A DNA stretch of 20,408 bases from a virus. Below, piece after piece: positions 2,175 through 17,086 of this stretch. Each line of letters begins with the position of its first letter. The first letter of the stretch is position 1. A program made the translations under genes and the position numbers. The notes under the pieces were generated by a model that saw nothing but the letters and a program-made list of their open reading frames with translations, had not been told where the DNA came from and did no database searches. The stretch is taken from positions 1-20,408 of the IMG/VR virus record IMGVR_UViG_3300037153_000800. One strand, 5' to 3'.

Positions 2175-2177
2175 GTT

Positions 2178-2498
2178 ATGCCGTTCAGCGCTGAAATCAA
2201 TCTGGCTCCGCTCGAAGATGTCTTCGCCAAGATGCAGGAGAACATTGACCATTTCCGCGATGATGATATGGCGGCGGAATTGGTGCGCTGGCAGATTGAG
2301 GATATGCACCGGCAGTACCCCAATCTGGAGTACCCTGATGAAAACTCGGCGATGACCCGTATCTGGCCAACGTCGCGAGTCAATCTGCGGAAGTGGCCAA
2401 ATTATCGCACCAGCCGGCCCCTCCTGCGCGCATCGCTGTGGGCAGACTTAGTTGAACGCATGGGTAAGCTGATGGTGGAGAAGATCGCATGGCGGTAG
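2178..2498 (+). CDS. Probable neck / head-tail joining protein
   Basis: A 106-residue protein of unproven function. It begins three bases after the connector stop and overlaps the next gene by ten bases, so it belongs to the same translational unit. It is predicted mostly helical, with an acidic first half (PLEDVFAKMQENIDHFRDDD) and a more basic, tryptophan-containing second half (RIWPTSRVNLRKW), and has no signal peptide or membrane segment. Its size and position between a gp6-like connector and a probable stopper suggest one of the small head-tail joining or HK97 gp10-like tail-completion proteins. I do not recognise a family motif, so the function comes from position only. Confidence 0.5.
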   Translation: MPFSAEINLAPLEDVFAKMQENIDHFRDDDMAAELVRWQIEDMHRQYPNLEYPDENSAMTRIWPTSRVNLRKWPNYRTSRPLLRASLWADLVERMGKLMVEKIAWR

Positions 2499-2848
2499 AT
2501 TTCTCCAGCCTGGTATATCTACCCAACTTTGACCTATGGGCGCGCAGCGTGACAATAACCCCGATTGCTTCGCAGCCCGGCGCTCCGGCATATACCAATC
2601 GAGGCATCTATAGTACACGAGCGGTCGATGTGCCGTCTGAGATTGGGGCGATCATCTCTGATCAGGAGACCATTCTCGATATCAGAGAGATTGAATACAG
2701 CGTATTGCCTGCGCAGGGCGACCTGATTGACATTCCGCAAGAGGGCAATATCCCGGCCGCTGGCATGTTTGAGGTGACTGATGCTTCCACTAACGGCGGG
2801 GGCGAGACCACGCTGGCTATTCGCAGGTGGGAGGCCCCGGCACCGTGA
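2489..2848 (+). CDS. Probable head-closure (stopper) protein
   Basis: This 119-residue protein is predicted to be almost all beta strand. The pattern fits small head-tail joining or stopper proteins that plug the connector after packaging: an N-terminal segment naming the fold (LPNFDLWARSVTITPIAS), a central set of strands, a turn giving LPAQGDLIDIPQEG, and a last strand GGGETTLAIRRWE. The ATG at 2489 has GGTGGAG eight bases upstream and overlaps the preceding gene by ten bases. Position and beta-rich layout support the call; no diagnostic catalytic or binding motif exists for this group, so alternatives such as another tail-completion subunit remain. Confidence 0.55.
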   Translation: MAVDFSSLVYLPNFDLWARSVTITPIASQPGAPAYTNRGIYSTRAVDVPSEIGAIISDQETILDIREIEYSVLPAQGDLIDIPQEGNIPAAGMFEVTDASTNGGGETTLAIRRWEAPAP

Positions 2849-3552
2849 TCACCGACACCCAGAGTTATGGCTGGGTTATCCTCAACGCAATTTATGACAA
2901 GCTGGTTGCGTCCAACTTCTTTCAGAACTGGACGTTGAAGCGACTGGTCCGCGCGCTGCCCATCGAGGGTGGTATCCAGATTCCCTTCCTGGGCATCTAT
3001 TGGATGGAAGAGGCTCTGGGGCCGCTGGGCGATATTAACGCGGGGGAGATACGTTTCACCGATACGGTGCGCATCGGGTTTCAGATTGTAATGAAGAACA
3101 ATGATCCGGTTGCGCTTCAGACCAACCTGGATCAGGCTTACTGGTTCATTATGAATTATGTCTTGCGTGACCCAGACTTCACCAATCTGTTTGAATCGAG
3201 CATGGTGGATAACACGCGCATCAACGGCATCTCGCGCGGTCTAGTGCGTACTCGCTGGGGTCTAACCGGCTCAAAGAATGAGACCCCGGTGGGGGAGCTC
3301 CAGATGGACCTATCCATAGTGTTTGGTACAGAGTGGGCGCCTGGCCCATTCCCAGACCTGGAGCGCATCACAGTTCAGACCGGCTTCCCGCAAGGCGGCT
3401 CGCCGGAAGAAGTGAACATGGTTCAGCAGGTGACGATGGTTTATGACTTCAACCCGGACGCGGTTCCTAATCCGTTGCCCCCGGGCACTGACCCACCGAA
3501 CCCGTTCTATCCGTCGCCCCCACCGCCACCGCCGCTGAAGAAAGGAGATTGA
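2845..3552 (+). CDS. Probable tail terminator / tail completion protein
   Basis: The chosen start is the GTG at 2845, which overlaps the TGA of the previous gene (GTGA) and has GGGAGG about ten bases upstream. A GTG at 2827 in the same frame is possible but lies further inside the upstream gene and is not as well spaced. The 235-residue product starts with helices (YGWVILNAIYDKLVASNFF) followed by an alpha/beta core with RIGFQIVMKNNDPVALQ and DLSIVFGTEW. This resembles tail-completion proteins that cap the tail tube and join it to the head. The C-terminus is proline-rich with a run of six prolines before LKKGD. The gene lies just upstream of DUF2635 and the sheath, where Mu carries its gp37 completion gene. 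The function is inferred from position and general fold pattern. Confidence 0.5.
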   Translation: MITDTQSYGWVILNAIYDKLVASNFFQNWTLKRLVRALPIEGGIQIPFLGIYWMEEALGPLGDINAGEIRFTDTVRIGFQIVMKNNDPVALQTNLDQAYWFIMNYVLRDPDFTNLFESSMVDNTRINGISRGLVRTRWGLTGSKNETPVGELQMDLSIVFGTEWAPGPFPDLERITVQTGFPQGGSPEEVNMVQQVTMVYDFNPDAVPNPLPPGTDPPNPFYPSPPPPPPLKKGD

Positions 3553-3554
3553 CC

Positions 3555-3953
3555 ATGAATGACAAGCCCCATCAGAATAACGACAGGCCCCAGAAGCAGG
3601 AAAAACGTGAGAAGAGCGTGGTCTGGCATCGGCGCCAGGCTCGCTTGAAGAAGGTGCGCGATCAGAGACAGGACAAGCGGGTGCGTGTCGAACCTGTCAA
3701 CCAACGGGTGCGAGAGACGATTGCTCACCCCTTCGGTGGTCGCTTCCCGGCGACGGGTTCAACCGAGTGGCCCAACGATAGCTTCACCAAGCGCAGAATC
3801 CGCGATGGTGACATCAAGCTGGCTGCTGACCAGCAACAGCGACCCCAGGAACAGCGCAAGGAACAGAAGCCGGCAGAGCGGCACTCGGCGGCTCGCCGGC
3901 CGGTGGCAGCAGCGCCCCCGCGGGCGCCAACCCGGGCGCCAACTGGTTCGTGA
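3555..3953 (+). CDS. DUF2635 (Mu gp38-like) protein
   Basis: Small basic protein of 132 residues. Around residues 48-90 it carries the DUF2635 pattern: VEPVNQRVRETIAHPFGGRF, then PATG, a W, and K-RRIRDGDIKLA. In Mu-like phages the family reads 'V-x-P-x-G-x-VRDP...LP..G...W-x-RRLRDGDV' and is the small gene just before the tail sheath, the same place as here. The flanks differ from the usual short family member: a charged N-terminal extension of about 45 residues rich in Lys, Arg and Gln, and a C-terminal Gln/Ala/Pro/Arg-rich tail. The ATG at 3555 follows GGAGA by six bases; a TTG two codons earlier is less likely. The molecular role of DUF2635 is not established. Confidence 0.65.
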   Translation: MNDKPHQNNDRPQKQEKREKSVVWHRRQARLKKVRDQRQDKRVRVEPVNQRVRETIAHPFGGRFPATGSTEWPNDSFTKRRIRDGDIKLAADQQQRPQEQRKEQKPAERHSAARRPVAAAPPRAPTRAPTGS

Positions 3954-4008
3954 TTCGGTCTATCCCAAGAGCGTGATCTGAAACTCACCCTCATCACAGG
4001 AGTGGAAC

Positions 4009-6252
4009 ATGCCTATCAGTTTCGCCCAGATTCCGGCCAACATTAAGGTTCCATTGTATTGGGTTGAAGTGGACCCAAGCATGGCCGGTCTTCCCACGCT
4101 CAGGCTGCGCGCTTTGCTCGTGGGCACCATGACGGTCGATGGCGTTGCAGAGCCGGACGTGCCTATCGCGATTGGCACGATGGCGCAGGCTGAAGAGCAA
4201 TTCGGCGCGGGCAGTGAACTCGCGCGCATGTTCCGCACTTTCTTTGCCAACAATTTTGCCAATGAGGTGTGGGCCGGCCCGGTCGCCGAACCTGTGGGGG
4301 CTAGCCCAGCGTCGGGCACCATCCAGGTAGCTGCTCCTCCATTGGAGGCAGGTACCATTCACCTATATATTGGCGGTCAGCACGTGCCGGTCAATGTTGG
4401 TGGCACCGATACGACCCTCCAGGTGGCGGCGGCTATCGTGGAGGCCATACACGCCAAGGCGGAGTTGCCCACACACGATACGTTGCCGGTCACGGCGGTG
4501 CTCGGCGGGCAGGCTCAGGGCATTGGTACCGCTCAGGCGACTGTGCTCAATATTACTGGTCATGCCGGGGCGCCCATCTCTGAAGGTAGCATGATCACAG
4601 GCACCGGCGTGCCGGCCGGCACCACTATCGCTAGCCAGATTTCGGGCACAGAGGGTGGGGATGGTTCCTATCGTACCAGCCAGGTCACGACCGCGACGGC
4701 GGCGGCTCTAACCTTCTCGGAGGCGACGGGCACTGGCAATGGCAACGGCACCAACCTTACGATGACTGGTGTTACCGGCACGATCAAGATTGGGGCCGTG
4801 ATCACCGGCACCGGCGTGCCGGCGGGAACCACGGTTGTCAGCCAGGCGGCTGGCAATGTGGGCAGTGATGGTGTTTATGTTACCAGCCAGGCCACGACCG
4901 TGGCTGCTGCCGCGGTGACGTTCGGGGAAGCGACTGGCACCGGCGATGCAGTGGCCTCGGACCTCAATGTCACGGCGGTTCAAGAGGGCACGATTGCCAT
5001 TGGCAGCTACGTGATTGGCACCGGCGTGCCGCCGGACACTCGCGTGGTAGGTCAGGTTTCCGGTGTGAACGGCAAAGCCGGTGTCTATTATCTGAGCGCG
5101 GCGACCACGGCCTCCGATGCAGACTTGACCTTCGACCTGCCCATGGATACCGTCCATCTCACCTGTATGTGGGCGGGGGTCAATGGCAACGATATCCGGG
5201 TTGAGACTGACTACTTCGGCCAGATTGGCGGCGAAGTAGCGCCCACAGGTATCCAGTTGGTTTTGCCAGCCACTGGCTTCCTCACCGGCGGGGCGGGCAC
5301 GCCAGAGTTCGACGTGCTGATCATGAACATGGGCGAACAGGAGTTCGAGTACGTCTGTATGCCCTATACCGACAGCACGTCGCTGATGGCCTGGGAGGAG
5401 GAATACGGTTTTGGAGATAATGGCAGGTGGGGGTGGATGCGCCAGCACTTTGGTCACGTGTTCAGTTCCAAGCGGGGCACTTACTCCAACCTGATCAACT
5501 TCGGCCTGACCCGCAACAGCGGCGTCGTCTCGATCATGGCTTTCGAAGTCAAGACCCCCACGCCCATGTTTGAGATGGCGGCAGCGTACACGGCCAAGGC
5601 TCAGCGCGCTTTGACCAATGATCCGGCCCGGCCGCTCCAGACCCTCCAGCTGGCCCACACTCTGCCGGCGAAACTCCACGACCGCTTCAACTGGCTGGAA
5701 ATCAACTCCATGGCGGGCAGCGGTTTAGCCATCCAGAAATGCTGGGAAGGCAGCGGTATGCCGCAGATCGCTCGCGAGCAGACCACCTACCAGCTTAACC
5801 TGTATGGTCAGGGGGATGACGCCTACGAATTGGTCACGACACTCGCGACCCTGGCCAAGCTTCTGCGCAACCAGAGGCACGCAATCACGTCGAAATACCC
5901 ACGCCATAAGCTGGCCAACGATGGCACCCGTTTCGGCCCGGGTCAGGCTATCGTCACCCCGGGTATCATCAAGGCGGAGCTCATCTCGCAGTATCGCATG
6001 GATGAGTGGAACGGCCTGGTGGAGGATACGCGCAACTTCAAGCGCTTCCTGCTCGTGGAACGCGACCCGAATGATCCAAACAGGGTCAATGTCCTGTATC
6101 CGCCAGACCTGGTCAACCAACTCCGTATCTTTGCGGTGTTGGCGCAGTTCCGGCTCCAGTATGACCGCGGCATCGACGTGGAAATCATCGGCTACACCGG
6201 CCTGTCCGGTATTGCCGGCGCTCGCGGTGCCTTGATCGGCCCCAGCCTTTAG
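4009..6252 (+). CDS. Contractile tail sheath protein, Mu gpL-like, with a large repeat insertion
   Basis: The protein polymerises around the tail tube and contracts to drive it through the cell envelope. The N-terminus (MPISFAQIPANIKVPLYWVE, then LVGT and GSELARMFRTFFANN) and the C-terminal half (KLANDGTRFGPG, VTPGIIKAELISQY, RNFKRFLLVERDPNDPNRVN, YPPDLVNQLR, and a final RLQYDRG) are characteristic of the Mu gpL family. At 747 residues it is about 250 longer than Mu gpL (around 495). The excess is mostly one block at about residues 172-376, between LPVTA and VHLTCMWAGVNGNDIRV, which in ordinary homologues are nearly adjacent. AGGAG lies six bases before the ATG. The 55-bp gap upstream holds only this ribosome-binding site. 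Confidence 0.93.
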   Translation: MPISFAQIPANIKVPLYWVEVDPSMAGLPTLRLRALLVGTMTVDGVAEPDVPIAIGTMAQAEEQFGAGSELARMFRTFFANNFANEVWAGPVAEPVGASPASGTIQVAAPPLEAGTIHLYIGGQHVPVNVGGTDTTLQVAAAIVEAIHAKAELPTHDTLPVTAVLGGQAQGIGTAQATVLNITGHAGAPISEGSMITGTGVPAGTTIASQISGTEGGDGSYRTSQVTTATAAALTFSEATGTGNGNGTNLTMTGVTGTIKIGAVITGTGVPAGTTVVSQAAGNVGSDGVYVTSQATTVAAAAVTFGEATGTGDAVASDLNVTAVQEGTIAIGSYVIGTGVPPDTRVVGQVSGVNGKAGVYYLSAATTASDADLTFDLPMDTVHLTCMWAGVNGNDIRVETDYFGQIGGEVAPTGIQLVLPATGFLTGGAGTPEFDVLIMNMGEQEFEYVCMPYTDSTSLMAWEEEYGFGDNGRWGWMRQHFGHVFSSKRGTYSNLINFGLTRNSGVVSIMAFEVKTPTPMFEMAAAYTAKAQRALTNDPARPLQTLQLAHTLPAKLHDRFNWLEINSMAGSGLAIQKCWEGSGMPQIAREQTTYQLNLYGQGDDAYELVTTLATLAKLLRNQRHAITSKYPRHKLANDGTRFGPGQAIVTPGIIKAELISQYRMDEWNGLVEDTRNFKRFLLVERDPNDPNRVNVLYPPDLVNQLRIFAVLAQFRLQYDRGIDVEIIGYTGLSGIAGARGALIGPSL
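4537..5136 (+). repeat. Three ~70-residue repeats inserted in the tail sheath
   Basis: Residues about 177-239, 248-308 and 317-376 of the sheath are three copies of one unit: a short strand, then G-x-I-x-x-G-S/A-x-I-x-GTGVPAGT, a strand T-x-V-x-S-Q, a G-x-x-G-x-Y turn, and S-Q/A-x-x-T-x-x-A-x-x-L-TF. The 15-mer GGCACCGGCGTGCCG occurs exactly at 4600, 4807 and 5017, a period of 207-210 bp. Units 1 and 2 are closer to each other than to unit 3. Similar GTGVPAGTTI units are known to me from phage tail fibre and decoration proteins. They probably form small beta domains on the outside of the sheath. Confidence 0.85.
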
Positions 6253-6265
6253 ACGGGCGGCCCCT

Positions 6266-6289
6266 GACCGTGTACACGTGTACACGGTC
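6266..6289. promoter_or_regulatory. Perfect 24-bp palindrome between sheath and tube genes
   Basis: Each half is GACCGTGTACAC and the two halves meet without a spacer; pairing breaks at 6265/6290. It lies in the 70-bp gap between the sheath stop and the tube start. As RNA it would fold into a stem of about ten pairs with an ACGT loop. No T-run follows (TACCCTTCAC), so it does not look like an ordinary intrinsic terminator. An operator for a dimeric protein, an RNA-processing or attenuation hairpin setting sheath versus tube levels, or a protein recognition site are all possible. Confidence 0.6.
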
Positions 6290-6322
6290 TACCCTTCACA
6301 CGGCTAACAAGAGGAGGCCAAA

Positions 6323-6688
6323 TTGGCTCAACGGTTTGCTGGGATTGCCTTCTTGATGATCAACGGCAATCAGTACGCGCTGCGTGGCAACTTCACCGTG
6401 TCACCCAGCGCGGTCGAACGCACAATGATCGCCGGCCAGGATGGGGTGCATGGCTACCAGGAACTTCCCAGGGTGCCTTACATCGAGGGCGATTTGTCGG
6501 CTGTGCCTCAGCTGAGCCTGGAGGAACTGGAATCACAGACCGATGTCACTGTGGTCGCCCAGCTGGCCAACGGCATGCAGTATACGCTGGCCAGCGCCAC
6601 CTGCAAGGCCGGCCTGGAAGAGAACACCCGCGACGGCCAGCTGCGGGTCAGGTGGGAGGGCTTGTGGTGTGAAGAAGTACTATTATAA
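6323..6688 (+). CDS. Phage tail tube protein, Mu gpM-like
   Basis: This protein stacks in rings to make the inner tail tube through which DNA passes. The 121-residue sequence carries the family signature almost throughout: ALRGNFTVSPSAVERTMIAG, then QDGVHGYQELPRVPYIEGDL, a helix with LSLEELES, AQLANGMQYTL, and the closing RVRWEGLWCEE. The length matches the family. The start is TTG at 6323, with a strong GAGGAGG five bases before it. The gene follows the sheath as in all Mu-type tails. The usual next gene, the tail chaperone, is displaced by a reverse-strand endonuclease gene. Confidence 0.92.
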   Translation: MAQRFAGIAFLMINGNQYALRGNFTVSPSAVERTMIAGQDGVHGYQELPRVPYIEGDLSAVPQLSLEELESQTDVTVVAQLANGMQYTLASATCKAGLEENTRDGQLRVRWEGLWCEEVLL

Positions 6689-6699
6689 TCAAACACTTA

Positions 6700-6756
6700 G
6701 CTGGAAATGGTCAAACCATTTCTCAGCACACTTACGTTACGGTGCTATATCACCGT
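6700..6756. other. Two adjacent hairpins at the convergent 3' ends of the tube and endonuclease genes
   Basis: Bases 6700-6727 fold as GCTG-GAAATGG, loop TCAAA, CCATTTC-(T)-CAGC: eleven pairs with one bulge. Bases 6739-6756 fold as ACGGTG, loop CTATAT, CACCGT, overlapping the endonuclease stop. Neither is followed by a U-run on the + strand, which would be harmful inside a late operon. Reading leftward, the first hairpin is followed by the T-containing stretch TAAGTGTTTGATTATAATAG, so weak termination of the endonuclease transcript is possible. Confidence 0.4.
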
Positions 6757-7247
6757 TCACGAGCATATTGGCCGAAATACTTTTTTGCAGCGGCGACATA
6801 GGCAGAATGTGCGGCTTCGGGAGTGGCATACAGGCCCAGGTATAGCTGGTCCCCGTTAACCTTGATCGAAGCCTCGTATTTGCTGCCGTTTTTCGTCACC
6901 CCTTTGAACGGGGTGCTGTGAGCTTTGCGTGACTGCATTCGCTGGTTCGCTGCGTTCTGAGAGCGGGTCGCTTCTCGCAAGTTCGACCAACGGTCATCAT
7001 TTCTGATGCCGTTGATGTGATCGATGTCCAGGCCGGGCTTTGGCCAATCACCGGTCATATAGAAGAACGCGAGACGGCTGGCGGCATAGTGGAGGCTACC
7101 GATTTTGACCTCCCAGTATCCACGCCAGTGCAGCTTGCCCATCCGGGAGCCGGCGGCATAGCGACCCCGCTGAATGCGTCTCGTGAAATGACCTGTCTCT
7201 GGGTCATAGTGTACTTGCTCTAACAAGAGGGTGTGTGTAAGTGTCAT
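6750..7247 (-). CDS. HNH endonuclease with AP2 DNA-binding domain (homing type)
   Basis: This 165-residue protein has the layout of phage free-standing HNH-AP2 homing endonucleases. Residues about 10-65 form the small N-terminal beta/alpha region (YDPETGHFTRR, W-K-I-G, ASRLAFFYMTGDWP). Residues 74-102 are the HNH core (DIDHINGIRNDDRWSNLREA, then SQNAANQ); the DH at 76-77 and N89 fit the metal-binding and catalytic positions. Residues 111-162 are an AP2-like DNA-binding domain (FKGVTKNGSKYEASI, LGLYATPEAAHSAYVAAAKK). The ATG at 7247 follows AGGGAGG by five bases. It is the only gene on the - strand, set between two tail genes that are usually neighbours, so it was probably acquired by invasion. 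Such enzymes cut cognate alleles lacking the insertion and spread by repair. It does not interrupt a reading frame and there is no sign of an intron. Confidence 0.88.
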   Translation of the reverse strand: MTLTHTLLLEQVHYDPETGHFTRRIQRGRYAAGSRMGKLHWRGYWEVKIGSLHYAASRLAFFYMTGDWPKPGLDIDHINGIRNDDRWSNLREATRSQNAANQRMQSRKAHSTPFKGVTKNGSKYEASIKVNGDQLYLGLYATPEAAHSAYVAAAKKYFGQYARER

Positions 7248-7319
7248 GATCGCCTCCCTGGAGAAGTGGAAACCCTAGCCCTCCCACGACCCCAAAGGCA
7301 AGAGAGGAGTACAGCTGCC

Positions 7320-7730
7320 GTGAACAAACCAGAAAGAGAAGGCTTCGTGGACGATCAACCGGCGGATAACGTCGATACCAAGGCGCCCCCGCCGGCCCCG
7401 GAACCGCCACCGTTGGCGGCTGAGACCTGGCCGGTGGTGGTCAAGTTAGTCCACAAGCCAGTGCGCAAGAGCCTGAATGAGACGCTCAACGAACTGACGT
7501 TCCGCGAGCCGACAGCCGGCGATATCCTGCGCTGCGGCGGAAACCCTTGCCGCATCGACACCCTATTTGGGCAAGGCATCACCATCGATGATCGCAAGAT
7601 GATGACGCTGATGGCCAATCTATCGGGGGTGATGGAGCCGTTCCTTCAGCAGATGGACCCGCGCGACTACAACTCATGCGCATATCGTCTGCAGCGTTTT
7701 TTTCTTCCGGAACCGGAAGCAGCCTGGTAG
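7320..7730 (+). CDS. Tail assembly chaperone (Mu gp41 / TAC family), zero-frame product
   Basis: The 136-residue protein binds the tape measure before the tube polymerises. After a Pro-rich N-terminus (PPPAPEPPPLA at about 28-38) comes the family core: VVVKLVHKPVRKSLNETLNE, then LTFREPTAGDIL, a long middle helix with DDRKMMTLMANLSGV, and MDPRDYNSCAYRLQRFF near the end. LTxREPTAGDxL is the signature of the Mu gp41-type chaperones. GTG at 7320 is chosen because AGGAG lies ten bases upstream; the open frame extends back to 7233 but that would overlap the endonuclease gene head and lacks a site. The end of the gene carries a slippery T7 run, so a longer fusion product is expected. Confidence 0.82.
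   Translation: MNKPEREGFVDDQPADNVDTKAPPPAPEPPPLAAETWPVVVKLVHKPVRKSLNETLNELTFREPTAGDILRCGGNPCRIDTLFGQGITIDDRKMMTLMANLSGVMEPFLQQMDPRDYNSCAYRLQRFFLPEPEAAW
7697..7719 (+). other. Predicted -1 programmed frameshift site
   Basis: The zero-frame codons read CGT TTT TTT CTT, giving a perfect T TTT TTT heptamer at 7697-7703 of the X XXY YYZ type. A -1 slip here leaves the frame that stops at 7730 and enters the frame open to 7903. Immediately 3' lies the perfect inverted repeat CTTCCGG-AA-CCGGAAG (7704-7719), which could act as a stimulatory hairpin, though its zero spacer is shorter than usual. Confidence 0.75.
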
Positions 7731-7903
7731 GTGAGGGCGACCCGGACGACCTCATACTAGACTGTTACCGGTTGGCGCGTTGGTTCCATCAGAACCCTGA
7801 CCTGTATCTGGAAATGCCCCTCTCGCGTGTCCAGATGCACCTCCATTATGCGGTGAAGCTGCACCGCGTACAACAGCGAGCCGGGGCCGCGGATGCCGAC
7901 TGA
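7703..7903 (+). CDS. Tail assembly chaperone frameshift extension (T-like part)
   Basis: This part has no convincing start of its own and is read as a -1 fusion to the upstream chaperone, predicted product 194 residues (128 + 66). After the slip the protein continues SSGTGSSLVGEGDPDDLILD, then CYRLARWFHQNPDLYLEMPL, SRVQMHLHYAVKLHRVQQR. The helical, basic MHLHYAVKLHR segment fits the second half of G-GT type chaperones, which contacts tube subunits while the first half holds the tape measure. The frame overlaps the tape-measure start by eleven bases, the spacing expected if translation does reach 7903. The minor fusion is normally made at a few per cent of the main product in this family; the level here is unknown. 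Confidence 0.75.
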   Translation, partial: SSGTGSSLVGEGDPDDLILDCYRLARWFHQNPDLYLEMPLSRVQMHLHYAVKLHRVQQRAGAADAD

Positions 7904-10900
7904 GACCCAGGAACTGCAGCTGAAGGTTACGTTGATTGACAACGTGACCCCTAACCTTGCGCGTGTGCGCGGGCAGATGCAGGAAGTGGGGCAGAAAACT
8001 CAGCAGCATGCCCAGCAGATGTCTGGCGGCCATGAGAACATGGAGAAGATGCGCCGCAACATCGAGGAAGTCGGCAAGGCTATCCGGGGGGCACTACATG
8101 GCAACATAGAGCAGTCATCGGCATCTTTGAGCCGGCTAGCCGGCGGCGCGGGTCTAGCCATCACTGCCGTCGCCGGCATTGGCGTAGCCTTCTATGAGGT
8201 GGGCAAGAAGCTGCGCGAGTTCTCGCAGAAGATGATCGAGCTACGCACCCTGTCACAACAGACCGGGTTTGGCGCCGGGGAGATCAAGAGCGTAGTTGAT
8301 CAGATGGCGCAGATGGGGGTGGGCGGTCGGGAGGCCATCACCAATATCCAGGGTATCGCTCGCGCTATCGCTGATGTGAGCACGCAGGGTAGCGAGCTCC
8401 GGCGCAAGCTGATGGGGATGACTACAAACAAGGAGGGCATGGAAAGATTCCTCCAAAATCTGATTGGGTTTGGTAATAAAGGCGACCTGGTTGGCGCGAT
8501 TAACTCAATTGTCGAAGCGGCCACCAACGTCTATGATAATGCCCTCAAGGAGCACGGCCCGGTAGTCGCCGCTGCATGGCGGTCTCAGTTCCTCGCTAAC
8601 CTGGGCCTCAACGCCGAAATGTTGGCTCTGTATGAGAAGCTGCGCACAGCGTCAGCTTCGGAACGGGCGAAGATTGAGGCCGATATCAAACAGTCACAAG
8701 AGTACGCCAAGGCCTGGGAGCAGGTCAGCCAGAAGGTTGATCAGATTTGGAGGGGGGTCCAACGCGAGTTAATGCCCCTGATGAAAGAGTTTGTCGGGGC
8801 CAGCGATGATGTTGCTGAGACGTGGGGGGTCAGCATCGGTGGGGCTATCCGTGAAGTGGTGGAGACGGTTAAGCCGATCATCAAGTTCTTGACTAGCTCG
8901 CCTGAAGATGCCTCTAACCAGATTTGGGAAGCACTCAAGGGCCGCCTCACGGCGATGCCGGAACAATGGAAAAAGAATCAGGAGGAAGCGCTTAGAAAAA
9001 TGCAGGAGCGCCAGGCTGAGGAACAACGCCTCAAAAACATGTCCCGGGGTGAATACTGGGAAGAGATGAAAAGCTGGTTCGGTCTGGGCAAGAAGGGGGG
9101 CGCTGCGGCGACCCCGCAGAAGTTTGCAAATTTGGGAACTGAGAACCAGCGCGGCTTGATCGAGGATGAACAAGACCTGATGAAGCAGGTCATCGTTCAG
9201 TTCACCCGGCTCAATGCCCTGTTATCCGGTGAAGAGAAACCCGGCGCCGCGGGTGGTCCAGTATCCGGTGGTGGTGCTCTAGGTTTGATGTCCACTCAGA
9301 TGGGGGGTCTTGGCCCTGGTATGGGGGCCGGTGGGGGTATGGGGCGACTGCCAGGCTTTAGCGGCGGTGGCGGCGGTTACACTGGTGGTGGCGGCGGTTA
9401 CACTGGTGGCGGCGGTGGCGGCGGCTATAGAGGGGGCGGTGGCGGTCCATATGGTAGTGATGTAGGTGCAGGTACTGGAGCCGGCGCCGGGGCGACCCCT
9501 GCGCAGCCGACTATCGGTACCCCGTTTGGCCCTCAGGCAGGAGGCGGTTTCACGCCTGGTCCGGCGGGACCACCTGGTCCCGGGGCCGAATCTACCGGTA
9601 AATACCCAGTATCTGCCTCTGAGAAAGAGCGGGGCGGAGCTCTTTATCAGAAGTTGCTGGCAGAGTTCAGAGCCAATCCACCGAAGGGCGTTCCTCCAGA
9701 CGGCGCAAGATTTGGTATCACAAAAGGTACACCAGAAGAGTGGGCACGGTTCGGCGTCTCTGTTGCAAAAGCTGAATCCAGTTTCAATCCAGCGACAAAA
9801 AACCTGAGTGATCCCGGCGGGTCTTTTGGTGTGTTTCAATATGCCCATGGTCAAGTGCCGGGCGGAAATGCTTATGATGTTGATGCCTCGGTTAAGGCAT
9901 TTGTTAGAGATGCGGGGGGAGCAGCGGTCCACCCGGGCGGCATCGGGGGTGGCCGTAGAGGCGATAGCATCTTGTCGCGGCGGTTTTCCACTATTGGGCG
10001 CAATCCAGGTGCATCACGTCAATATCTTGGTATGGCAGGAACGATTGCCAGTAGTGTGAGTGGCGCTACAGCGACGGCCGATTCCAAAGTCGCGATGGTA
10101 AAACCACGCATTGAACAGCGCGAAGACCTTGCCAACTATCTGGCTCCTGAGCGCACCAATCTCACAGCGATGGCTACTACCCCGGGTGGGGCCCAGCCCA
10201 TTCGCGATATCTCGCAGGCGATGAACCTGAATGTTGGTGGGAAGATGACCCCAGAGGGGTTGATGATCCATCATACCTCTGGGCGTGAGAAGGGGGCAGA
10301 GGGGGTTGCTAGTGTTCTGCGCAATCGCAACCTATCAGTTCAATATGTCATCGACCGCGATGGCAATATCACTCAGATTTCTCCAGAGGGGCGCACCGCA
10401 TATCATGCAGGCAATCTAGAGAAGTCGATGGGAAAGACCGGCCGCCAGTTTGGTAACACCAATCTGGAAGGCGTGGAAGTTATCGCCAAGAACGAAGGTG
10501 ATGTCACCGATGCTCAGCGAGCGGCGATTGCTAATCTGACAGCGCAGCGCTCGAAGCGCTGGGGCTGGGACCCGAAGACTAGCGTTTGGGGTCATGGCGA
10601 GTTAACCGGGCGCAAGGAATCTGACGAAGGCTCTACGGCCCGCATGATTCGCGAAGGCAAGATGCCTTTGCCAGACCTGTCCACGAAGTCGCCCATCCAG
10701 ACGGCGCAAGTGCGGGCGACGGATTTAGACCGCGATACGCTTGATACTGCATTGACCAGTCGTGATTCGATTGTTACCAAAGGCAAGCTGGTAGCCAACG
10801 TGGAGGCACCTAAAGGTACTCAGGTATCGGTCAAGGGCGAAGGGGCGTTCAAGAAGACGGAAACCAACCGCACGATCACGCCTGAGAAAAAGGAAGCGCC

Positions 10901-10943
10901 AACCAAGGTGGCTGAAGCAGCATCGGCTGGCGGCGAAGAGTGA
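7893..10943 (+). CDS. Tape measure protein 1 with lysozyme-like and Amidase_2 domains
   Basis: The tape measure sets tail length, fills the tube and leaves first on infection. Residues 1-340 are mostly helix (ETQELQLKVTLID, RLAGGAGLAITAVAGIGVAF as a hydrophobic segment at 81-100, LRTLSQQTGFGAGEIKSVVD, YAKAWEQVSQKVDQIW). Residues 429-451 (KQVIVQFTRLNALLSGEEKPG) precede a Gly-rich linker (about 452-565). Residues about 577-705 look like a lysozyme/transglycosylase-type domain: VAKAESSFNP with candidate catalytic E628, then SFGVFQYAHG. Residues about 785-925 are an Amidase_2/AmpD-type N-acetylmuramoyl-L-alanine amidase: MIHHTSG (H793/H794), TAYHAG (H838), and GHGELTGRKESDEG, where H901 and D911 match AmpD zinc ligands ten residues apart. 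The gene is followed at once by a paralogue. The start overlaps the frameshift ORF. Confidence 0.87.
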   Translation: MPTETQELQLKVTLIDNVTPNLARVRGQMQEVGQKTQQHAQQMSGGHENMEKMRRNIEEVGKAIRGALHGNIEQSSASLSRLAGGAGLAITAVAGIGVAFYEVGKKLREFSQKMIELRTLSQQTGFGAGEIKSVVDQMAQMGVGGREAITNIQGIARAIADVSTQGSELRRKLMGMTTNKEGMERFLQNLIGFGNKGDLVGAINSIVEAATNVYDNALKEHGPVVAAAWRSQFLANLGLNAEMLALYEKLRTASASERAKIEADIKQSQEYAKAWEQVSQKVDQIWRGVQRELMPLMKEFVGASDDVAETWGVSIGGAIREVVETVKPIIKFLTSSPEDASNQIWEALKGRLTAMPEQWKKNQEEALRKMQERQAEEQRLKNMSRGEYWEEMKSWFGLGKKGGAAATPQKFANLGTENQRGLIEDEQDLMKQVIVQFTRLNALLSGEEKPGAAGGPVSGGGALGLMSTQMGGLGPGMGAGGGMGRLPGFSGGGGGYTGGGGGYTGGGGGGGYRGGGGGPYGSDVGAGTGAGAGATPAQPTIGTPFGPQAGGGFTPGPAGPPGPGAESTGKYPVSASEKERGGALYQKLLAEFRANPPKGVPPDGARFGITKGTPEEWARFGVSVAKAESSFNPATKNLSDPGGSFGVFQYAHGQVPGGNAYDVDASVKAFVRDAGGAAVHPGGIGGGRRGDSILSRRFSTIGRNPGASRQYLGMAGTIASSVSGATATADSKVAMVKPRIEQREDLANYLAPERTNLTAMATTPGGAQPIRDISQAMNLNVGGKMTPEGLMIHHTSGREKGAEGVASVLRNRNLSVQYVIDRDGNITQISPEGRTAYHAGNLEKSMGKTGRQFGNTNLEGVEVIAKNEGDVTDAQRAAIANLTAQRSKRWGWDPKTSVWGHGELTGRKESDEGSTARMIREGKMPLPDLSTKSPIQTAQVRATDLDRDTLDTALTSRDSIVTKGKLVANVEAPKGTQVSVKGEGAFKKTETNRTITPEKKEAPTKVAEAASAGGEE
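9363..9446 (+). repeat. Glycine-rich linker repeat in tape measure 1
   Basis: GGN codons encode a run of glycines broken by two GGYTGG units and one GGYRGG unit. The stretch GGCGGTTACACTGGTGG recurs in tandem. This marks a flexible hinge between the helical tape and the enzymatic domains. Confidence 0.8.
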
Positions 10944-13832
10944 ATGGCTGAGACCCAAGAACTGCAGTTAAAAGTAACCCTGATTGATCAGGCAACGCCT
11001 GAACTCAATCGTATCCGGGGTCAGCTGCAGGAAGTTGCCCGGGCGACGCAGCGCTACACGCAGGAATCAGCGACCGGCGCCGGGCTAGAGACTTCCAAGC
11101 GCCAGATTGAGGATATCGGCCGGGTTGTCCGTTCGGTGCTTCATGGCGACCTGGAACGCTCAACCAGTTCGCTGACCCGGCTTGCGGGCAGCACCGGTCT
11201 AGCGATTGGAGCCTTTGCGGGGGTTGGCGCCGCAATTTATGCGGTGGGCGATAAGCTGCGGGATTTCTCGCAGAAGATGGTTGAATTGCGTACCCTGTCG
11301 CAACAGACCGGGTTCATAGCCGGCGACCTCAAGGGTGTGGTCGATCAAATGGCGCAGTTCGGCATCAAGGGGCCGGACGCGGTGCGCAACATCCAGGGTC
11401 TGGCTAAGTCGATTGCGGAACTCAGTTTGCAGGGCAGCGAACTGAGACAGAAGATGATGTCTATGACCACCAACAAGGAGGGCATGGCTCGCTTCCTCCA
11501 AAACATTATTGGGTTTGGAGAGAAGGGTGACCTGGTATCGGCGGTTAATGAGATCATCCAGGCCGCGGACAACGTCTATGAGAATGCAGTCAAGACCCGG
11601 GGGCCGGTGGTCGCGGCGACCTGGCGCACTCAGTTCCTCGAAGGCTTCAACCTCACACCTGAGCTTCTGGCGGTCTATGAGAAGCTCAAAAATATGTCGG
11701 AGGCGGAGCGGGCCAAAGCGCAGCAGGACATCGCGCGCTCGCTAGAGTACGCCAAGGCCTGGGAGCAGGTTAGCCAGAAGGTCGATAAAGTCTGGTCGGG
11801 CATTCAGCGTGAGTTGTTGCCGCTCGCTCAGTCATTCTTAGGCGTCAGCGACGATATCGCGGAATCGTGGGGTGTGCAGATTGGCGGGGCGATTCGCCAG
11901 GTCATCAATGACCTCAAGCCGCTGGTCAAGTTCTTCACGATGACACCGGGGGAAGCGGCGGGGGCGGTCGCTGGTTCTGTATCCTGGAAGCCTCCAGCCT
12001 GGTGGCAATGGTTAACGGGCACTGGCACTGTTGAGGGCGGTGCGGGGGCTGGCGCCGGGGCCGGTGGCGCGCAACATGGGGCAACCGGCTCTTACTTCAT
12101 GGGGCAGGCCGGCGCCGGTTTGGCTGCGGGGGAAGGCTCGAAGCTAGATGTGGGTGCGTTGGGCATTCCCGGGTTGGCTGATGCTTTGCAAGCGATGCCA
12201 GAGGGGGGCGGCACAGGCAAGAGCATCGCGGCCGGCGGGGCAGGCTGGCGCGGTCTGCCGATGTCCACCAATATCGAAGACCGGCGCGTGGTGGAAGATG
12301 CCGGCAGCCTTACCAAACAGTTGATTGTTCAACTCAACCGTCTCAATATGTTGCTCTCCGGCGAAGAGAAGCCGGGCGAAGCATCCCAGATGCAGGGTCT
12401 ATACTCTGGCGGCACTGGCGGTGGCGGCGGTCTGGGTGCTGGCGGCGGCGGTGGTGGCGGTGGTGGTGGTGGTGGCGGCGGTTATGCTCCAGCCGGTGGT
12501 GGCGGCGGCGGTTACACCGGCGGCGGTGGTGGCGGTGGAGGTGGTGGAGGCGGGGGCGGCGCACAACCCGCAGCTGCAGGAGGCGGCGGAGGCGGTGGTG
12601 GTGGAGGCGGGGGTGGAGGCGGGGGCGGCGCTCAGGCTCCGGCTGCCGGAGGTGGCGCAGAGGCTCCAGCTGCTGCAGCCGGTGCTCCGCCTTCTGTAGG
12701 GGCCGGGCTTCCTGGCGCTGCGGGGGTGCAAGGGGCAGCTGGTGGTCCATCGGGGCCGGCGGCTGGAAAAAGCGCTGGGGCCGGGTTGCCTGCGGCCGAT
12801 CAAATGCCAGCCGGCTACGATGCCTTTCTTGGCGGCGGTCGCTCGAAGGGCGGCACAGGGGCTGGCGCAGGCGCCGCAGGTGGAGCCAGCGGTGGCGGTG
12901 GTGGAGCCGGTCTTGGCGGCGGTGGTACACAGTTCGAGGCGAGCGGAGTGCGGGGGATGCCTGGCACTCCATCGGGGCCGGCGATGCGGCCAGTGCGTGC
13001 CTCAGAATCTCACCCGGCTCCTTCGCCAGAGGCGGCAGCCCAGCAGGCAGCGCGGGCATCGTCATTATCAAGGGTCACGCAGGCACAAGCGCAGGTTGCA
13101 GACGTACGCAAGGGGGCGCTTGATACAAGATTGACTGATGCTCTGCAATATGCGGCTGAGCAGACGGGTCTAGAGGTTCGGGTCACTTCAGGCGGCCAGA
13201 GAATGGAAGGGGCGCGGGGGGCGACCGGAAGCCACCGCCACGATCTGGGCAGGGCCGCAGACTTTGATTTGCTCGATGAGAAGGGCAACAAAGTTCCGAT
13301 GAATGACCCGCGGCGTCTTGCTTTCTTGGAAGCTGCGTCGCGAGCCGGGGCCGGCGGTGCTGGCACTGGATACATGAGTGACCCGCTCAAGATACATATG
13401 GGAATCACCGGGTCAGCGGCACGTGTTGGCGAAGGCTTGGGGCCATATGCTGGTAGCCCAGCGGAGCGAGCGGCGATCAATCGCGGTATTGCTCAATCTA
13501 GCCAGTTCAATCTGGCGCAATACAAACGTGATCAAGAGGCGCAGAAGAGCCGGGTTGCAGTCACTGAACAGGACAAGGCTGCTGCCTACTCGCGCTTCCT
13601 TGGGAAAGACCGGGCAGACCTGGACAAGATGACAGCCAAGTCCACCCAAGTAAATGCCAACGGTCAGGTTTCAGTCAAGGTGGCAAACGGGCAAGGCAAG
13701 GGCCAGCAGCCATCTGGTTTGTTCAAGCCTACGGAAGTCACCCGCCAGACCCAGATGCCAGCGGCGAGCACTGGGCCGAAGTCGTCTGGAGCAGAGGGTG
13801 GCGGTGCAGCAGCCAGCTACAATGAGGAATAG
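10944..13832 (+). CDS. Tape measure protein 2 (paralogue) with M15-type peptidase domain
   Basis: The gene starts on the base after the first tape-measure stop. Its N-terminal ~340 residues align essentially without gaps to that protein: TQELQLKVTLID, EFSQKM/DFSQKM, LRTLSQQTGF, MTTNKEGM-RFLQN, YAKAWEQVSQKVD, EGW/WGV-IGGAIR. The block KQLIVQLNRLNMLLSGEEKPG (456-478) is also shared. A very long Gly/Ala-rich linker follows (489-700). Residues about 740-830 form a different catalytic domain, a D-Ala-D-Ala carboxypeptidase/M15-like peptidase: EVRVTSGGQR, GSHRHDLGRAADFDL giving HxxGxAxD with H766 and D773 as zinc ligands, and KIHMGI with H818 as the third. Domain order, length (962 residues) and place suggest a second tape measure rather than a free lysin. 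Codons differ at many silent sites, so the duplication is not recent. Confidence 0.83.
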   Translation: MAETQELQLKVTLIDQATPELNRIRGQLQEVARATQRYTQESATGAGLETSKRQIEDIGRVVRSVLHGDLERSTSSLTRLAGSTGLAIGAFAGVGAAIYAVGDKLRDFSQKMVELRTLSQQTGFIAGDLKGVVDQMAQFGIKGPDAVRNIQGLAKSIAELSLQGSELRQKMMSMTTNKEGMARFLQNIIGFGEKGDLVSAVNEIIQAADNVYENAVKTRGPVVAATWRTQFLEGFNLTPELLAVYEKLKNMSEAERAKAQQDIARSLEYAKAWEQVSQKVDKVWSGIQRELLPLAQSFLGVSDDIAESWGVQIGGAIRQVINDLKPLVKFFTMTPGEAAGAVAGSVSWKPPAWWQWLTGTGTVEGGAGAGAGAGGAQHGATGSYFMGQAGAGLAAGEGSKLDVGALGIPGLADALQAMPEGGGTGKSIAAGGAGWRGLPMSTNIEDRRVVEDAGSLTKQLIVQLNRLNMLLSGEEKPGEASQMQGLYSGGTGGGGGLGAGGGGGGGGGGGGGGYAPAGGGGGGYTGGGGGGGGGGGGGGAQPAAAGGGGGGGGGGGGGGGGGAQAPAAGGGAEAPAAAAGAPPSVGAGLPGAAGVQGAAGGPSGPAAGKSAGAGLPAADQMPAGYDAFLGGGRSKGGTGAGAGAAGGASGGGGGAGLGGGGTQFEASGVRGMPGTPSGPAMRPVRASESHPAPSPEAAAQQAARASSLSRVTQAQAQVADVRKGALDTRLTDALQYAAEQTGLEVRVTSGGQRMEGARGATGSHRHDLGRAADFDLLDEKGNKVPMNDPRRLAFLEAASRAGAGGAGTGYMSDPLKIHMGITGSAARVGEGLGPYAGSPAERAAINRGIAQSSQFNLAQYKRDQEAQKSRVAVTEQDKAAAYSRFLGKDRADLDKMTAKSTQVNANGQVSVKVANGQGKGQQPSGLFKPTEVTRQTQMPAASTGPKSSGAEGGGAAASYNEE
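12408..12656 (+). repeat. Long poly-glycine tract in tape measure 2
   Basis: About 83 codons are mostly GGN, giving runs of up to 17 consecutive glycines separated by YAPA, YT, AQPAAA and AQAPAA. It is the most repetitive DNA of the window and creates long open frames in other frames and on the other strand that are not genes. The run lengths may vary between relatives by slippage. Confidence 0.85.
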
Positions 13833-14348
13833 ATGGGAAGTATTCGCGATATCCATATCCCATGGCGTGATGACCTCTTGCCGGCGAGCTACGGCAACGC
13901 AATGTTTCACGTTGCGACCGCGAGCAAAGAGAACGGCCGGCGGATTGTTCTGCACCAGTTTCCCAAACGTGAGCAACCGTACGCGGAGGATATGGGGCGC
14001 AAGGCGATTGAGTTCAGTGTGCGTGGTTACTGCATTACGTTCATGCAGGACACTGATGTGCCGCTCTATCGCAGAGACTATCGCATTGCGCGGGATATCC
14101 TGCAAGGCCAGCTAGAGACGGGGGGTGACCATATCCTCCAGCTGCCCACGCTAGACCCGATGCGTGTTGTTTGCCCATCATGGCGGCTCACAGAGGAAGA
14201 GCGCTTTGGCGGCTATTGTGTTTTCGATATGCAGTTCCAAGAGTTCGGCCGGCCACCGTTCAAGCCCAACCAGGATAGCCGGGAACTGTTGAACAATATG
14301 TCCACTCAGATGAAGCAGCGCGTGCTTCAGGTTTTGGATGGTCTCTGA
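13833..14348 (+). CDS. Mu gpN-like DNA circularization protein, N-terminal half
   Basis: The DNA_circ_N pattern runs from residue 10: PWRDDLLPASYGNAMFHV, then GRRIVLHQFPKREQPYAEDM, GRKAIEFSVRGYCI. It continues with RDILQGQLETGGDHILQLPT and FGGYCVFDMQFQEFG. In Mu this domain opens gpN (about 490 residues), a tail/baseplate protein between the tape measure and the hub, named for a role in circularising or protecting injected DNA. Here the frame stops after 171 residues and the next gene supplies the rest. The ATG follows the tape-measure TAG directly, with GAGGAA just inside that gene. Confidence 0.8.
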   Translation: MGSIRDIHIPWRDDLLPASYGNAMFHVATASKENGRRIVLHQFPKREQPYAEDMGRKAIEFSVRGYCITFMQDTDVPLYRRDYRIARDILQGQLETGGDHILQLPTLDPMRVVCPSWRLTEEERFGGYCVFDMQFQEFGRPPFKPNQDSRELLNNMSTQMKQRVLQVLDGL

Positions 14349-15016
14349 TGTTTCGAAAAGACGCCATCGAGGCGGCGCCGATTGCCTTGGACACTGTCAA
14401 CGCTATTCTTGGTTGGGCACCGCTCCAGGGCCGGCCGGGGGCGGACCTACGGGCAGCATGCGGCTATATCATCGCCAACGTCATACGGTTACTCCAAAAC
14501 GGTCTGTTTGGACCGCCGATTGTGAGGTGCTTCGATCTGACGGTGACGACTGGCATTGATTTGAAACAGCTGGCGCGGATACGGGGGATTACAGAGCAGG
14601 CGACCCCGAAGACCGCGGGCGCAATCACAATCAAAGATTCGCTGATTGAACTCTGCCTTGCTACAGAGGGGCGGGTGATCGCCAATACAGATTTCAAGAG
14701 CCGGGCGGACGCGGAAGACTGCAAGCTGAGAATGAATGAGGCGTTTAATGCCATCGAGGAGCACGTGGCAGATCAGATGGATGCCATGACCTATCGGGCG
14801 CTCATTGCTTTGCATGCAGCAATCACGTTCCATCTAATCGAGACGGCGCGACCGCTACCGCGCATGTTGTACTTCAAATTCAATCAACCAATGTCCACGC
14901 TGCACACGTCGATGCGGCTGTACTATGAGGGCGGCCGGGCCGATGAATTGAGGGTGGAGAATAAGGTTGTTCACCCGGCATTCATGCGGCCCTATGGCCG
15001 GGCGCTATCCAGTTGA
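14348..15016 (+). CDS. Mu gpN-like protein, C-terminal half
   Basis: The 222-residue product matches the last part of gpN-type proteins. It has a helical middle (AACGYIIANVIRLL, DFKSRADAEDCKLRMNEAF, MTYRALIALHAAI) and the characteristic end: FNQPMSTLHTSMRLYYEGGR followed by ADELRVENKVVHPAFMRPYG, comparable to the family's 'SRADEL..RN.V.HP.F.P.G'. Its ATG overlaps the TGA of the N-terminal half (TGATG), so the halves are translationally coupled and probably assemble into one functional unit. The two frames differ by -1 and both are open for many codons around the junction, so a one-base change would fuse them. Confidence 0.72.
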   Translation: MFRKDAIEAAPIALDTVNAILGWAPLQGRPGADLRAACGYIIANVIRLLQNGLFGPPIVRCFDLTVTTGIDLKQLARIRGITEQATPKTAGAITIKDSLIELCLATEGRVIANTDFKSRADAEDCKLRMNEAFNAIEEHVADQMDAMTYRALIALHAAITFHLIETARPLPRMLYFKFNQPMSTLHTSMRLYYEGGRADELRVENKVVHPAFMRPYGRALSS

Positions 15017-15022
15017 GGTGTC

Positions 15023-16180
15023 ATGTTACAGAGGTATCCAGTTCCCAACCCGGAAGAGGTTGCGACGCTGCTTGTGGGCGGTCGCCAGTTCACAGACTGG
15101 GAGACTGTTTGGGTTCAGCATCGCTATGCTGATGATTGCCCGCTGTTCAAGTTTACCTGCGCTGAGCGTGCGGCCCCGGAGTTGATTCAGTTCAAGCCGG
15201 GCGACCCCTGCGCCATCTATCTAGGTGGCCAGATTGGTGTGGTGGGGGTCATCGTTACGCGCCAGGTTGCCTACGATGCCAACAGCCATGGGGTGTTGCT
15301 CTTCGGCAAGGGGGTTAGCTGGTGGGCTGCGCGCTCTAGCGTGATGCATGAGACCCATGATTTCAGCGGCAAGGATTTCGAGACGGTGGCCAAGGAGGTC
15401 ATCGCGCCGTTTGGTGTGGGGGTGCGCACAATCGGTTCAATTGACAAGACCCCATTCCAGACCTTGCACGCTGAGCCGGGCCGGAAGGTCTGGGATTTCC
15501 TGGAAGGCATCGCGCGACCCCGCGGCGTTGTCTTGGGCAGCGACCCGCTGGGCAATATCCTGTTGATCGGAGATCACGTCAATAGCCCGGTGCAAGACCT
15601 TATCGAGGGGGAGAACATTCTCAAATGCCAAGCTGTGTTCACGCATGAGCAAGTGTATACCGATTACATTGTGACCGGCCAGCATGGAGCAAACGATCAG
15701 AAGAGCGGCACGGATACCAGTGAGATGGAAGCTGGTGCAAAGGGCACGGCTCGCCGCTACAGCGCGATTGTTCACCCGGCGGAGCAGCCGGTATGGGACA
15801 TCGGTGAGGTGGCAAAACGGGCGCAGAACGAAGCTATATGGTCTGAGGGCACCATCGTCCAGGTTACAGCTACAGTTCAGGGCTGGCTGCGCGGGGGTGG
15901 GCAACTCTGGGCAGCCGGCGACGTGGTGCACATTAAGTCGCCCATGTGTCCGCTGAATGACAACTTGAAGGCGCAGACGGTTACATTCACGCAGGATAGT
16001 GAATCAGGCACACTTACAACGCTAGAGTTGGTTGCGCCCTGGCTGCTGCGCGACAAGGTGAACTACAATGTTGATATGCCAGCTGCGGGCAAAGAGACGG
16101 GGGCTGCGGCAACCCCGGCGGCTGGGGAAGTGCCGGAGCAGCCCAAGCAGACGCTAGTGCAACAGCTGAAGATGTATTGA
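15023..16180 (+). CDS. Baseplate hub protein, Mu gp44 (gpP)-like
   Basis: This protein forms the trimeric hub at the centre of the baseplate, linking tube and spike, analogous to T4 gp27. The 385 residues are close to Mu gp44 (about 380). Visible family features are the N-terminal VGGRQFTDWETVWVQHRYAD, F-T-C-A-E, a GDPCAIYLGGQ strand with VGVIVTRQVAYDANSHGV, the GKGVSWWAARSSV motif, DFSGKDFETVAKEVIAPFGV, and REGEN/EGENILKC followed by HPAEQPVWDIGE and ARKRAQNEA-like helix. The C-terminal 30 residues are Ala/Gly/Pro-rich and probably disordered. It follows the split gpN with a six-base gap, as in Mu. Confidence 0.85.
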   Translation: MLQRYPVPNPEEVATLLVGGRQFTDWETVWVQHRYADDCPLFKFTCAERAAPELIQFKPGDPCAIYLGGQIGVVGVIVTRQVAYDANSHGVLLFGKGVSWWAARSSVMHETHDFSGKDFETVAKEVIAPFGVGVRTIGSIDKTPFQTLHAEPGRKVWDFLEGIARPRGVVLGSDPLGNILLIGDHVNSPVQDLIEGENILKCQAVFTHEQVYTDYIVTGQHGANDQKSGTDTSEMEAGAKGTARRYSAIVHPAEQPVWDIGEVAKRAQNEAIWSEGTIVQVTATVQGWLRGGGQLWAAGDVVHIKSPMCPLNDNLKAQTVTFTQDSESGTLTTLELVAPWLLRDKVNYNVDMPAAGKETGAAATPAAGEVPEQPKQTLVQQLKMY

Positions 16181-16210: not shown

Positions 16211-17086
16211 ATGCATCGAGCTACCCATGCTCACTCCTCTATTCGTGGTTATGTCGCGGGCGGTTGCCGTGCTGTGTTACCAGAAGTTGACGATAAGCCC
16301 AATATGCAGGAAACCAAAGGCGCTCGCGGCTGGAAGGGGCACAAGTGGCCGAACTTCGAGGCGCCGCAGAATTACGGCAATACGTCAGTCATCCATGATT
16401 CTGACCAGAAACAGCAACAGCAGAGTGGTGGTGGTGGTGGGGGTAGTGGCGGTGGCGATCAGAGCAAGCCTGGCAATTCCTCTGAGGCATTCATTATGTT
16501 TCCCGGGGGCAATGCGTCGTTTGCGGTTATCGCCGGGGGCACGGACGACCGGCGCCACAGGACGAAAGACCTTGGTAAAGGTGACAATATGACCCATCGC
16601 GGGGCGGAAGATGGGCTTCAGTTCCATATGCACGACAAGGGCACCAGCATCTCGACCGGCTCTGAGCGTACGATGCGCATGGCGGTTGTGCCTCAGCCCA
16701 GCAAGAAAAAGAAACAAACAGCTGGGCCGCAAGCATCAGCGACCGCGGCCAGCGGGGGTGGCGGGGGTGGGAGCGGCGGGGGCGATCAGGGTGGCGGCAA
16801 GCCTGAAGGGCAGAAGTCGCTGCGTGAGGATAACGACAAGTCAAAGAAGTATTTTCAGCAAACCGATAAATCGCAGAAGCATCAGCATGATGAATTGTAC
16901 TCTATGGTCAATAGCGAGGATTCGTCCAACTTCCATCAGGACAAAACAAAATCCTCGCAGGCGACCGAAGATCACGTCCACATGCGTTACAAGGAGTTCA
17001 AGATTTGGGTTGACAAATACGGTCACTGGTCAGAGGCGCCGATCATGCAGAAGAAGGACGTCTTCTGCAAAACAGATATGTCATAA
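16211..17086 (+). CDS. Baseplate spike / assembly protein V-type, Mu gp45-like
   Basis: The N-terminus (MHRATHAHSSIRGYVAGG, EVDDKPNMQETKG, APQNYGNTSVI, DDRRHRTKDL) is the Mu gp45 family pattern: an OB-fold domain joined to a beta-helical membrane-piercing spike. At 291 residues it is longer than Mu gp45 (about 197), through two insertions carrying the same linker, SGGGGGGSGGGDQ, at residues 72-84 and 181-193. The C-terminal part is His-rich, with HVH at 255-257, a candidate for the H-x-H iron-binding site near the spike tip known from this family; the exact match is uncertain. AAGGA lies about nine bases before the ATG. The 30-bp gap upstream contains a small TATTGACGACG duplication. Confidence 0.82.
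   Translation: MHRATHAHSSIRGYVAGGCRAVLPEVDDKPNMQETKGARGWKGHKWPNFEAPQNYGNTSVIHDSDQKQQQQSGGGGGGSGGGDQSKPGNSSEAFIMFPGGNASFAVIAGGTDDRRHRTKDLGKGDNMTHRGAEDGLQFHMHDKGTSISTGSERTMRMAVVPQPSKKKKQTAGPQASATAASGGGGGGSGGGDQGGGKPEGQKSLREDNDKSKKYFQQTDKSQKHQHDELYSMVNSEDSSNFHQDKTKSSQATEDHVHMRYKEFKIWVDKYGHWSEAPIMQKKDVFCKTDMS

Follow-up and report, generated by a model that had tools for sequence, protein, structure and literature searches.

Peptidoglycan-cutting domains carried on phage tape measures, and tape measures assembled as trimeric bundles, are both well known. Wall-lysis domains fused to the tape measure and used at entry have been described in phage P1 (Sit, with an SLT domain; PMC9024508), phiCbK (gp95, with a CHAP domain; PMC3556154), and mycobacteriophage TM4 (PMC1796659); the diffocin tape measure, which has been solved at full length, is a homotrimer with its N-termini at the collar and its C-termini on the spike (PMC11329794). 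Two genes annotated as tail tape measure proteins are mentioned in passing for Staphylococcus phage Hesat (PMC11018700). Here we describe two paralogous tape measure genes in tandem, A and B, from IMG/VR virus record IMGVR_UViG_3300037153_000800 (positions 1–20,408; "the window" hereafter means this whole stretch of 20,408 nt). Soil phages related to Bradyrhizobium prophages are a group with duplicated tape measure genes, and across their tandem pairs a conserved C-terminal tail is divided between the two members. A search of the literature, covering open-licence papers only, found no account of paralogous tape measures that lie in tandem and divide a tail between them.

Tandem tape measure genes in the window

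The two genes lie exactly where an earlier note, made from the sequence alone, had placed two neighboring open reading frames (ORFs), at 7893–13832; the stop codon of A (TGA, 10941–10943) abuts the start codon of B (ATG at 10944). The following parts were recognized:

7893..10943, + strand: tape measure A, alpha-tailed, 1016 amino acids (aa)
7893..8927, + strand: helical N-terminal domain of A, common with B (62% identity; all-helical AlphaFold2 model)
9150..9239, + strand: conserved rod-end motif of A (...RLNALLSGEEKPG)
9255..9587, + strand: Gly-rich linker of A (sequence and tandem repeats)
9603..10187, + strand: lysozyme/SLT-like region of A, conserved Glu at aa 628 (alignment A6; weak PDB lysozyme match, E = 0.015)
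10245..10619, + strand: Amidase_2 domain of A (PF01510, E = 2.9e-19)
10683..10940, + strand: alpha-type C-terminal tail of A, with the APxGTxV half and without the QTQM..A..GP half (half scores 1.49 / -1.30)
10944..13832, + strand: tape measure B, beta-tailed, 962 aa
10944..11963, + strand: helical N-terminal domain of B, common with A (62% identity)
12282..12371, + strand: conserved rod-end motif of B (...RLNMLLSGEEKPG)
12384..12740, + strand: Gly-rich linker of B (GC 70.5% in 12001–13000, and tandem repeats)
13140..13433, + strand: LAS/M15-like peptidase domain of B, putative Zn ligands H764/H766, D773, H818 (alignment A5, Foldseek)
13605..13778, + strand: beta-type C-terminal tail of B, without the APxGTxV half and with the RQTQM..A..GP half (half scores -0.59 / 2.42)

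About 340 N-terminal residues are shared almost without gaps, as had been noted; the alignment contains two small gaps, and because BLASTP with low-complexity filtering gives E = 8e-139, this similarity is not due to chance. A second block of 63% identity lies just before the Gly-rich linkers (A 420–449 / B 447–476). The C-terminal halves had been called unrelated. This holds only in part: the lytic domains differ, but the rod-end motif, the Gly-rich linker, and a homologous tail are common to both proteins.

Recurrence of tandem pairs and partition of the C-terminal tail

Direct searches with the two N-terminal domains (N-domains), whose divergence is too great for this approach, recovered no relatives in phage records (50,697 entries), IMG/VR, or GTDB genomes. 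Relatives were instead gathered through neighboring genes, with baseplate J and the circularization protein as anchors; this gave approximately 360 loci, including Bradyrhizobium prophages, many of which are fragments or repeats of one contig. Most of these relatives, from IMG/VR and Bradyrhizobium prophages, have a single tape measure. Tandem copies occupied 16 of 86 complete slots in a first survey (not deduplicated), one of these being from an isolate, Bradyrhizobium sp. SRL28 (L171), and later scans added twelve more pairs (L192, L193, and ten others). The search of related genomes that the earlier note had proposed thus finds the tandem pair in approximately 28 relatives, distributed over about ten N-domain groups.

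A homologous tail ends 76 of the 77 family members, and in single-copy proteins reads roughly V.GTGKI.VDVNAP.GT.V.A.GGGLFK.VE.NRQTQM.PA..GP. Its two halves, APxGTxV (half 1) and NRQTQM..A..GP (half 2), were scored with a leave-one-out profile built from 36 single-copy proteins; five distant single-copy rows, some with degenerate tails, lie outside this profile. Core single-copy proteins score high on both halves without exception (36/36). Pairs were termed complementary where one member retains half 1 only and the other half 2 only; this describes 15 of the 17 discovery pairs, and random pairing of single-copy proteins gives 26%. Because the halves had been chosen after the first pairs were seen, columns and profile were frozen before new loci were scored. 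All 12 held-out pairs (L192, L193, and ten more) are complementary, for an overall count of 27 of 29. New complete single-copy proteins are positive on both halves, with the exception of distant outgroup prophages (L266, L267, and L270) and one fragment (L329). Position does not explain the partition, because the order is beta–alpha in L093, L137, and L309. In several contigs truncated on the left, the only tail present is of the beta type; the absent alpha copy is predicted to lie upstream in each. For annotation of such phages, the rule is one alpha tail and one beta tail.

Some loci depart from a simple pair. The L207 contig (the same contig as L032) carries three tape measure-like genes in tandem at 1–7575, of which the first has an alpha tail, the last a beta tail, and the middle one a degenerate tail; the downstream gene order is also altered. 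Up to three tape measure-like ORFs in a row, the first cut off, occur in L064 (2–6089; also L069), a divergent subgroup with altered gene order before the circularization gene. At a distant Bradyrhizobium locus (L269, 6448–10897, minus strand), two adjacent N-domain-positive ORFs of 776 and 709 aa have no detectable conserved tail.

Selection and duplication history

Comparison of the N-domains of A and B gives a nonsynonymous divergence (dN) of approximately 0.30 and a synonymous divergence (dS) of 1.5 (LWL85), 1.6 (NG86), or 5.6 (maximum likelihood); because dS is saturated, dN/dS can be stated only as well below 1. In a tree of 92 N-domain rows, the first copies stand apart from the second as distinct clades in three groups: that of L124 (nine phages), that of L071 (eight phages), and L149/L340 (two). 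The low dN against saturated dS, together with these three groups, supports the earlier suggestion that both copies are under selection.

Other pairs are sisters within their own genome (the window, L093, L137, L096, L104, L103, and L309), often placed beside single-copy phages in the tree, and the copies of L044 and L171 group within that pair of genomes. These topologies would fit either approximately ten origins by duplication, or fewer with gene conversion of the N-domain. Among seven alpha members from five N-domain groups, N-domain identity within pairs is mostly 48–64% (38% in L071 and L073), and averages 21% between alpha members of different groups; tail identity for the same seven is 13–29% within pairs versus 48% between alpha members, and the tails of these seven cluster together. 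The tail and N-domain identities, compared in this way, may be a hint of gene conversion; approximately unbiased (AU) tests on the short tail favor neither history. Whether by repeated duplication or by gene conversion, both copies are retained.

Identity of the proteins as tape measures

A and B occupy the slot that holds the tape measure in relatives, between the frameshifted chaperones and the circularization/hub genes (DNA_circ_N). An AlphaFold2 model of A residues 1–456 is all helical, with predicted local distance difference test (pLDDT) values mostly above 90 over approximately residues 100–280 and low at the ends. A Foldseek search of the N-domain among viral proteins returned named structural neighbors that are mostly annotated tape measures, and a fold search of the PDB with the N-domain returned no match. 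A matches PHROG 2013 (lytic tail protein, E = 5e-6), B matches PHROG 14441 (tape measure, E = 0.0035), and tape measures of relatives match PF06791 (TMP_2, best E = 1.9e-6); these PHROG, PF06791, and Foldseek matches are each weak alone. Gene position, the -1 frameshift chaperones, the modeled helical N-domain, and the structural neighbors together support the assignment of both proteins as tape measures.

Wall-lysis domains

The Amidase_2 domain that had been read in A is certain, scoring 70.1 bits against a Pfam gathering score of 26. The lysozyme-like region proposed beside it (A 571–765) has a conserved ES.FNP...GSFG.FQ sequence containing the Glu, and its PDB lysozyme match extends over only approximately 31 residues. 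The M15-like peptidase read in B likewise finds agreement in fold and motif, though without a profile match: a model of the domain matches LysB4, RB49 endolysin (an L-alanoyl-D-glutamate peptidase), and hedgehog domains in Foldseek (probability 0.95–0.99, E 0.007–0.04), as well as VanXYc, and the invariant residues of alignment A5 (H64/H66, D73, and H118) correspond to the His-Asp-His of the LAS fold. The C-terminus of B returned no Pfam match and no PDB sequence match, and hhalign of its M15 region against a Pfam-positive relative gave an uninformative probability of 0.5%. The assignment is by modeled fold and motif, and the domain is accordingly termed LAS/M15-like and not placed in a named M15 subfamily.

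Modules in the same slot of relatives include Phage_lysozyme2, M15_4, CHAP, glucosaminidase, M23, Phage_lysozyme, and SLT. Lysis modules move between copies, because the A-type module is in the first gene in the window but adjoins DNA_circ_N in L004, and single-copy phages (e.g., L025) can carry the B-type module. In a PHROG scan of ten tandem C-termini that lack Pfam matches, most gave no clear lysis domain, so two different enzymes may not be present in every pair.

The surrounding tail module

The tail module in the window is that of contractile phages of the Mu/SfV type: family searches identified genes for sheath, tube, chaperone, DNA_circ_N, gp44-like hub, gp45, gp46, and baseplate J. 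The features delimited here are:

4009..6252, + strand: tail sheath, 747 aa, with a repeat-rich insert (PHROG 165, E = 1e-140)
6323..6688, + strand: tail tube protein (PHROG 185, E = 4e-22)
7233..7730, + strand: tail assembly chaperone, short form (PHROG 166, E = 3e-12)
7676..7903, + strand: -1 frame extension of the chaperone (frame relation and homologs in relatives)
7697..7704, + strand: slippery run TTTTTTTC, -1 frameshift (T-run at the equivalent place in 57/57 chaperone pairs)
13833..14348, + strand: N-terminal domain of the DNA circularization protein, gene directly after the tape measure slot (PF07157, E = 4e-14)
15023–16180: hub gene
16211–17086: spike gene, gp45

The slippery run in the chaperone gene is TTTTTTC at 7698. 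Only one chaperone pair is present, even at loci with two tape measures downstream (57 loci checked). The tape measure is the sole duplicated tail gene, all others being single-copy; a second complete tail module is ruled out on this basis.

The tube protein shares 68–81% identity with its counterparts in relatives. The sheath exceeds that of relatives by approximately 220 aa, and the additional region (approximately aa 140–385) contains GTGVPAGTTVxSQxxGxxGxDGxYxTSQ-type repeats. Between the genes for tube and chaperone lies a minus-strand ORF (6750–7247) that, read by eye, resembles an HNH homing-type endonuclease with an AP2-like end. The Mu gpN-like circularization/hub protein is encoded as two adjacent ORFs of 171 and 222 aa (13833–15016), which match PHROG 184 at its start and its end; this split is common to relatives. 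Upstream of the head–tail adaptor, at 22–1515, a collagen-like Gly-X-Y protein of 497 aa matches phage tail fiber families.

A proposed mixed tape measure in one tail

A and B are likely paralogous tape measures that assemble together in a single contractile tail, as a hetero-oligomeric bundle of rods. We infer a mixed tape measure, in whatever stoichiometry, because the tail is partitioned and the remaining tail genes occur once each. Both rods are full length, and within a pair their lengths correlate (r = 0.61, permutation p = 0.022). On this reading, the best of those considered, the tip-anchoring end would have been subfunctionalized and the wall-lysis domains diversified. In a single-copy phage, the homo-oligomer would anchor its C-termini on the baseplate spike or hub, with both halves present in every subunit; after duplication, each paralog would retain one half, such that both would be required for the tip complex. 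The single chaperone pair would load both N-domains, and the tube would polymerize along the mixed bundle. Upon contraction, both proteins would exit the tube and attack the peptidoglycan at different bonds, with A predicted to cut the glycan strand and an amide bond, and B the peptide stem.

Several observations weigh against this proposal. The tail halves were defined after inspection of the first 17 pairs, and the held-out pairs come mostly from groups already known, L309 being the one exception. Complementarity fails in L104 and L171, where half 2 is weak in both members and half 1 still asymmetric, and it is weak in L103. AU tests on the tail, which is too short, do not reject within-genome sisterhood (p 0.35–0.49). 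Rods within a pair differ by approximately 34 aa on average. The tail is modeled with pLDDT below 50, and no structure was obtained for it; its anchoring on the spike or hub is suggested by analogy.

The earlier note had raised both a mixed bundle and alternative tails, and the partition of the single-copy tail, with duplication confined to the tape measure, favors the mixed bundle. Alternative tails would mean that each virion contains a homo-oligomer of A or of B, so that particles would be of two kinds, each with its own wall-cutting enzymes. Each protein does contain all the parts of a tape measure, and the Gly-rich linkers and common N-domains would permit recombinational switching; however, either homo-oligomer would be without one tail half that all core single-copy relatives have, no other tail gene is duplicated, A and B share no exact match longer than 27 bp, and no element for inversion or switching was noticed. 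We regard this alternative as improbable. Slightly less so, though still unlikely, is an arrangement of one true tape measure and one tail-loaded lysin, the tape measure-like N-domain of which only provides entry to the tube, with a rod that has no measuring role. That beta tails retain the C-terminal QTQM..A..GP end and usually adjoin the hub genes would be consistent with such a lysin, as would the longer beta member of the L124 group, with its greater number of detected lysis domains. However, both members have rods of approximately 390–590 aa that end in the same motif, and half a tail each; alpha members carry lysis domains too, and the order of the members is variable.

A transient duplication, with the second copy being either recent and neutral or an artefact of assembly, is very improbable. 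The N-domains in the window are sisters with 62% identity, and the window itself has no close relative among the loci gathered; set against this are the low dN and saturated dS, the recurrence of pairs in many independent assemblies and in the SRL28 isolate, and the retention of both copies across several phages in three groups. An artefact of assembly and a single decayed copy were both rejected.

Comparison with known systems

A mixed tape measure in the window would be one case of a wider proposal, which we consider evenly balanced: that an obligate hetero-oligomeric tape measure arose on about ten occasions within a single group of phages with contractile tails, by duplication and splitting of the same C-terminal anchoring tail, with one tail carrying a fixed mixture of wall-cutting enzymes. 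If true, the ruler can be a defined hetero-oligomer, as opposed to the usual view of one tape measure protein per tail, and the carriage of several peptidoglycan hydrolases in one narrow tube would be explained. The tandem pairs offer a natural experiment on the binding partner of the tape measure C-terminal tail.

The passage on Hesat gives no paralogy, partition, or mixed assembly for its two annotated genes (PMC11018700). The order of genes in the window (sheath, tube, chaperones, tape measure, circularization protein, gp44-like hub, spike, and baseplate J) is broadly that of SfV/Mu-type myophages and Vibrio phage XM1, and the XM1 tape measure, at 479 aa, is near the rod length observed here (PMC10457771); these phages, however, have a single tape measure. 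P1, phiCbK, and TM4 similarly have one tape measure per phage, whereas here there are two with different modules. As in the diffocin, hydrolases would act at the tip (PMC11329794). However, the diffocin bundle is a homotrimer of one protein, whereas the role here is predicted to fall jointly to two paralogs with partitioned tails, and the hydrolases are borne on the tape measures themselves.
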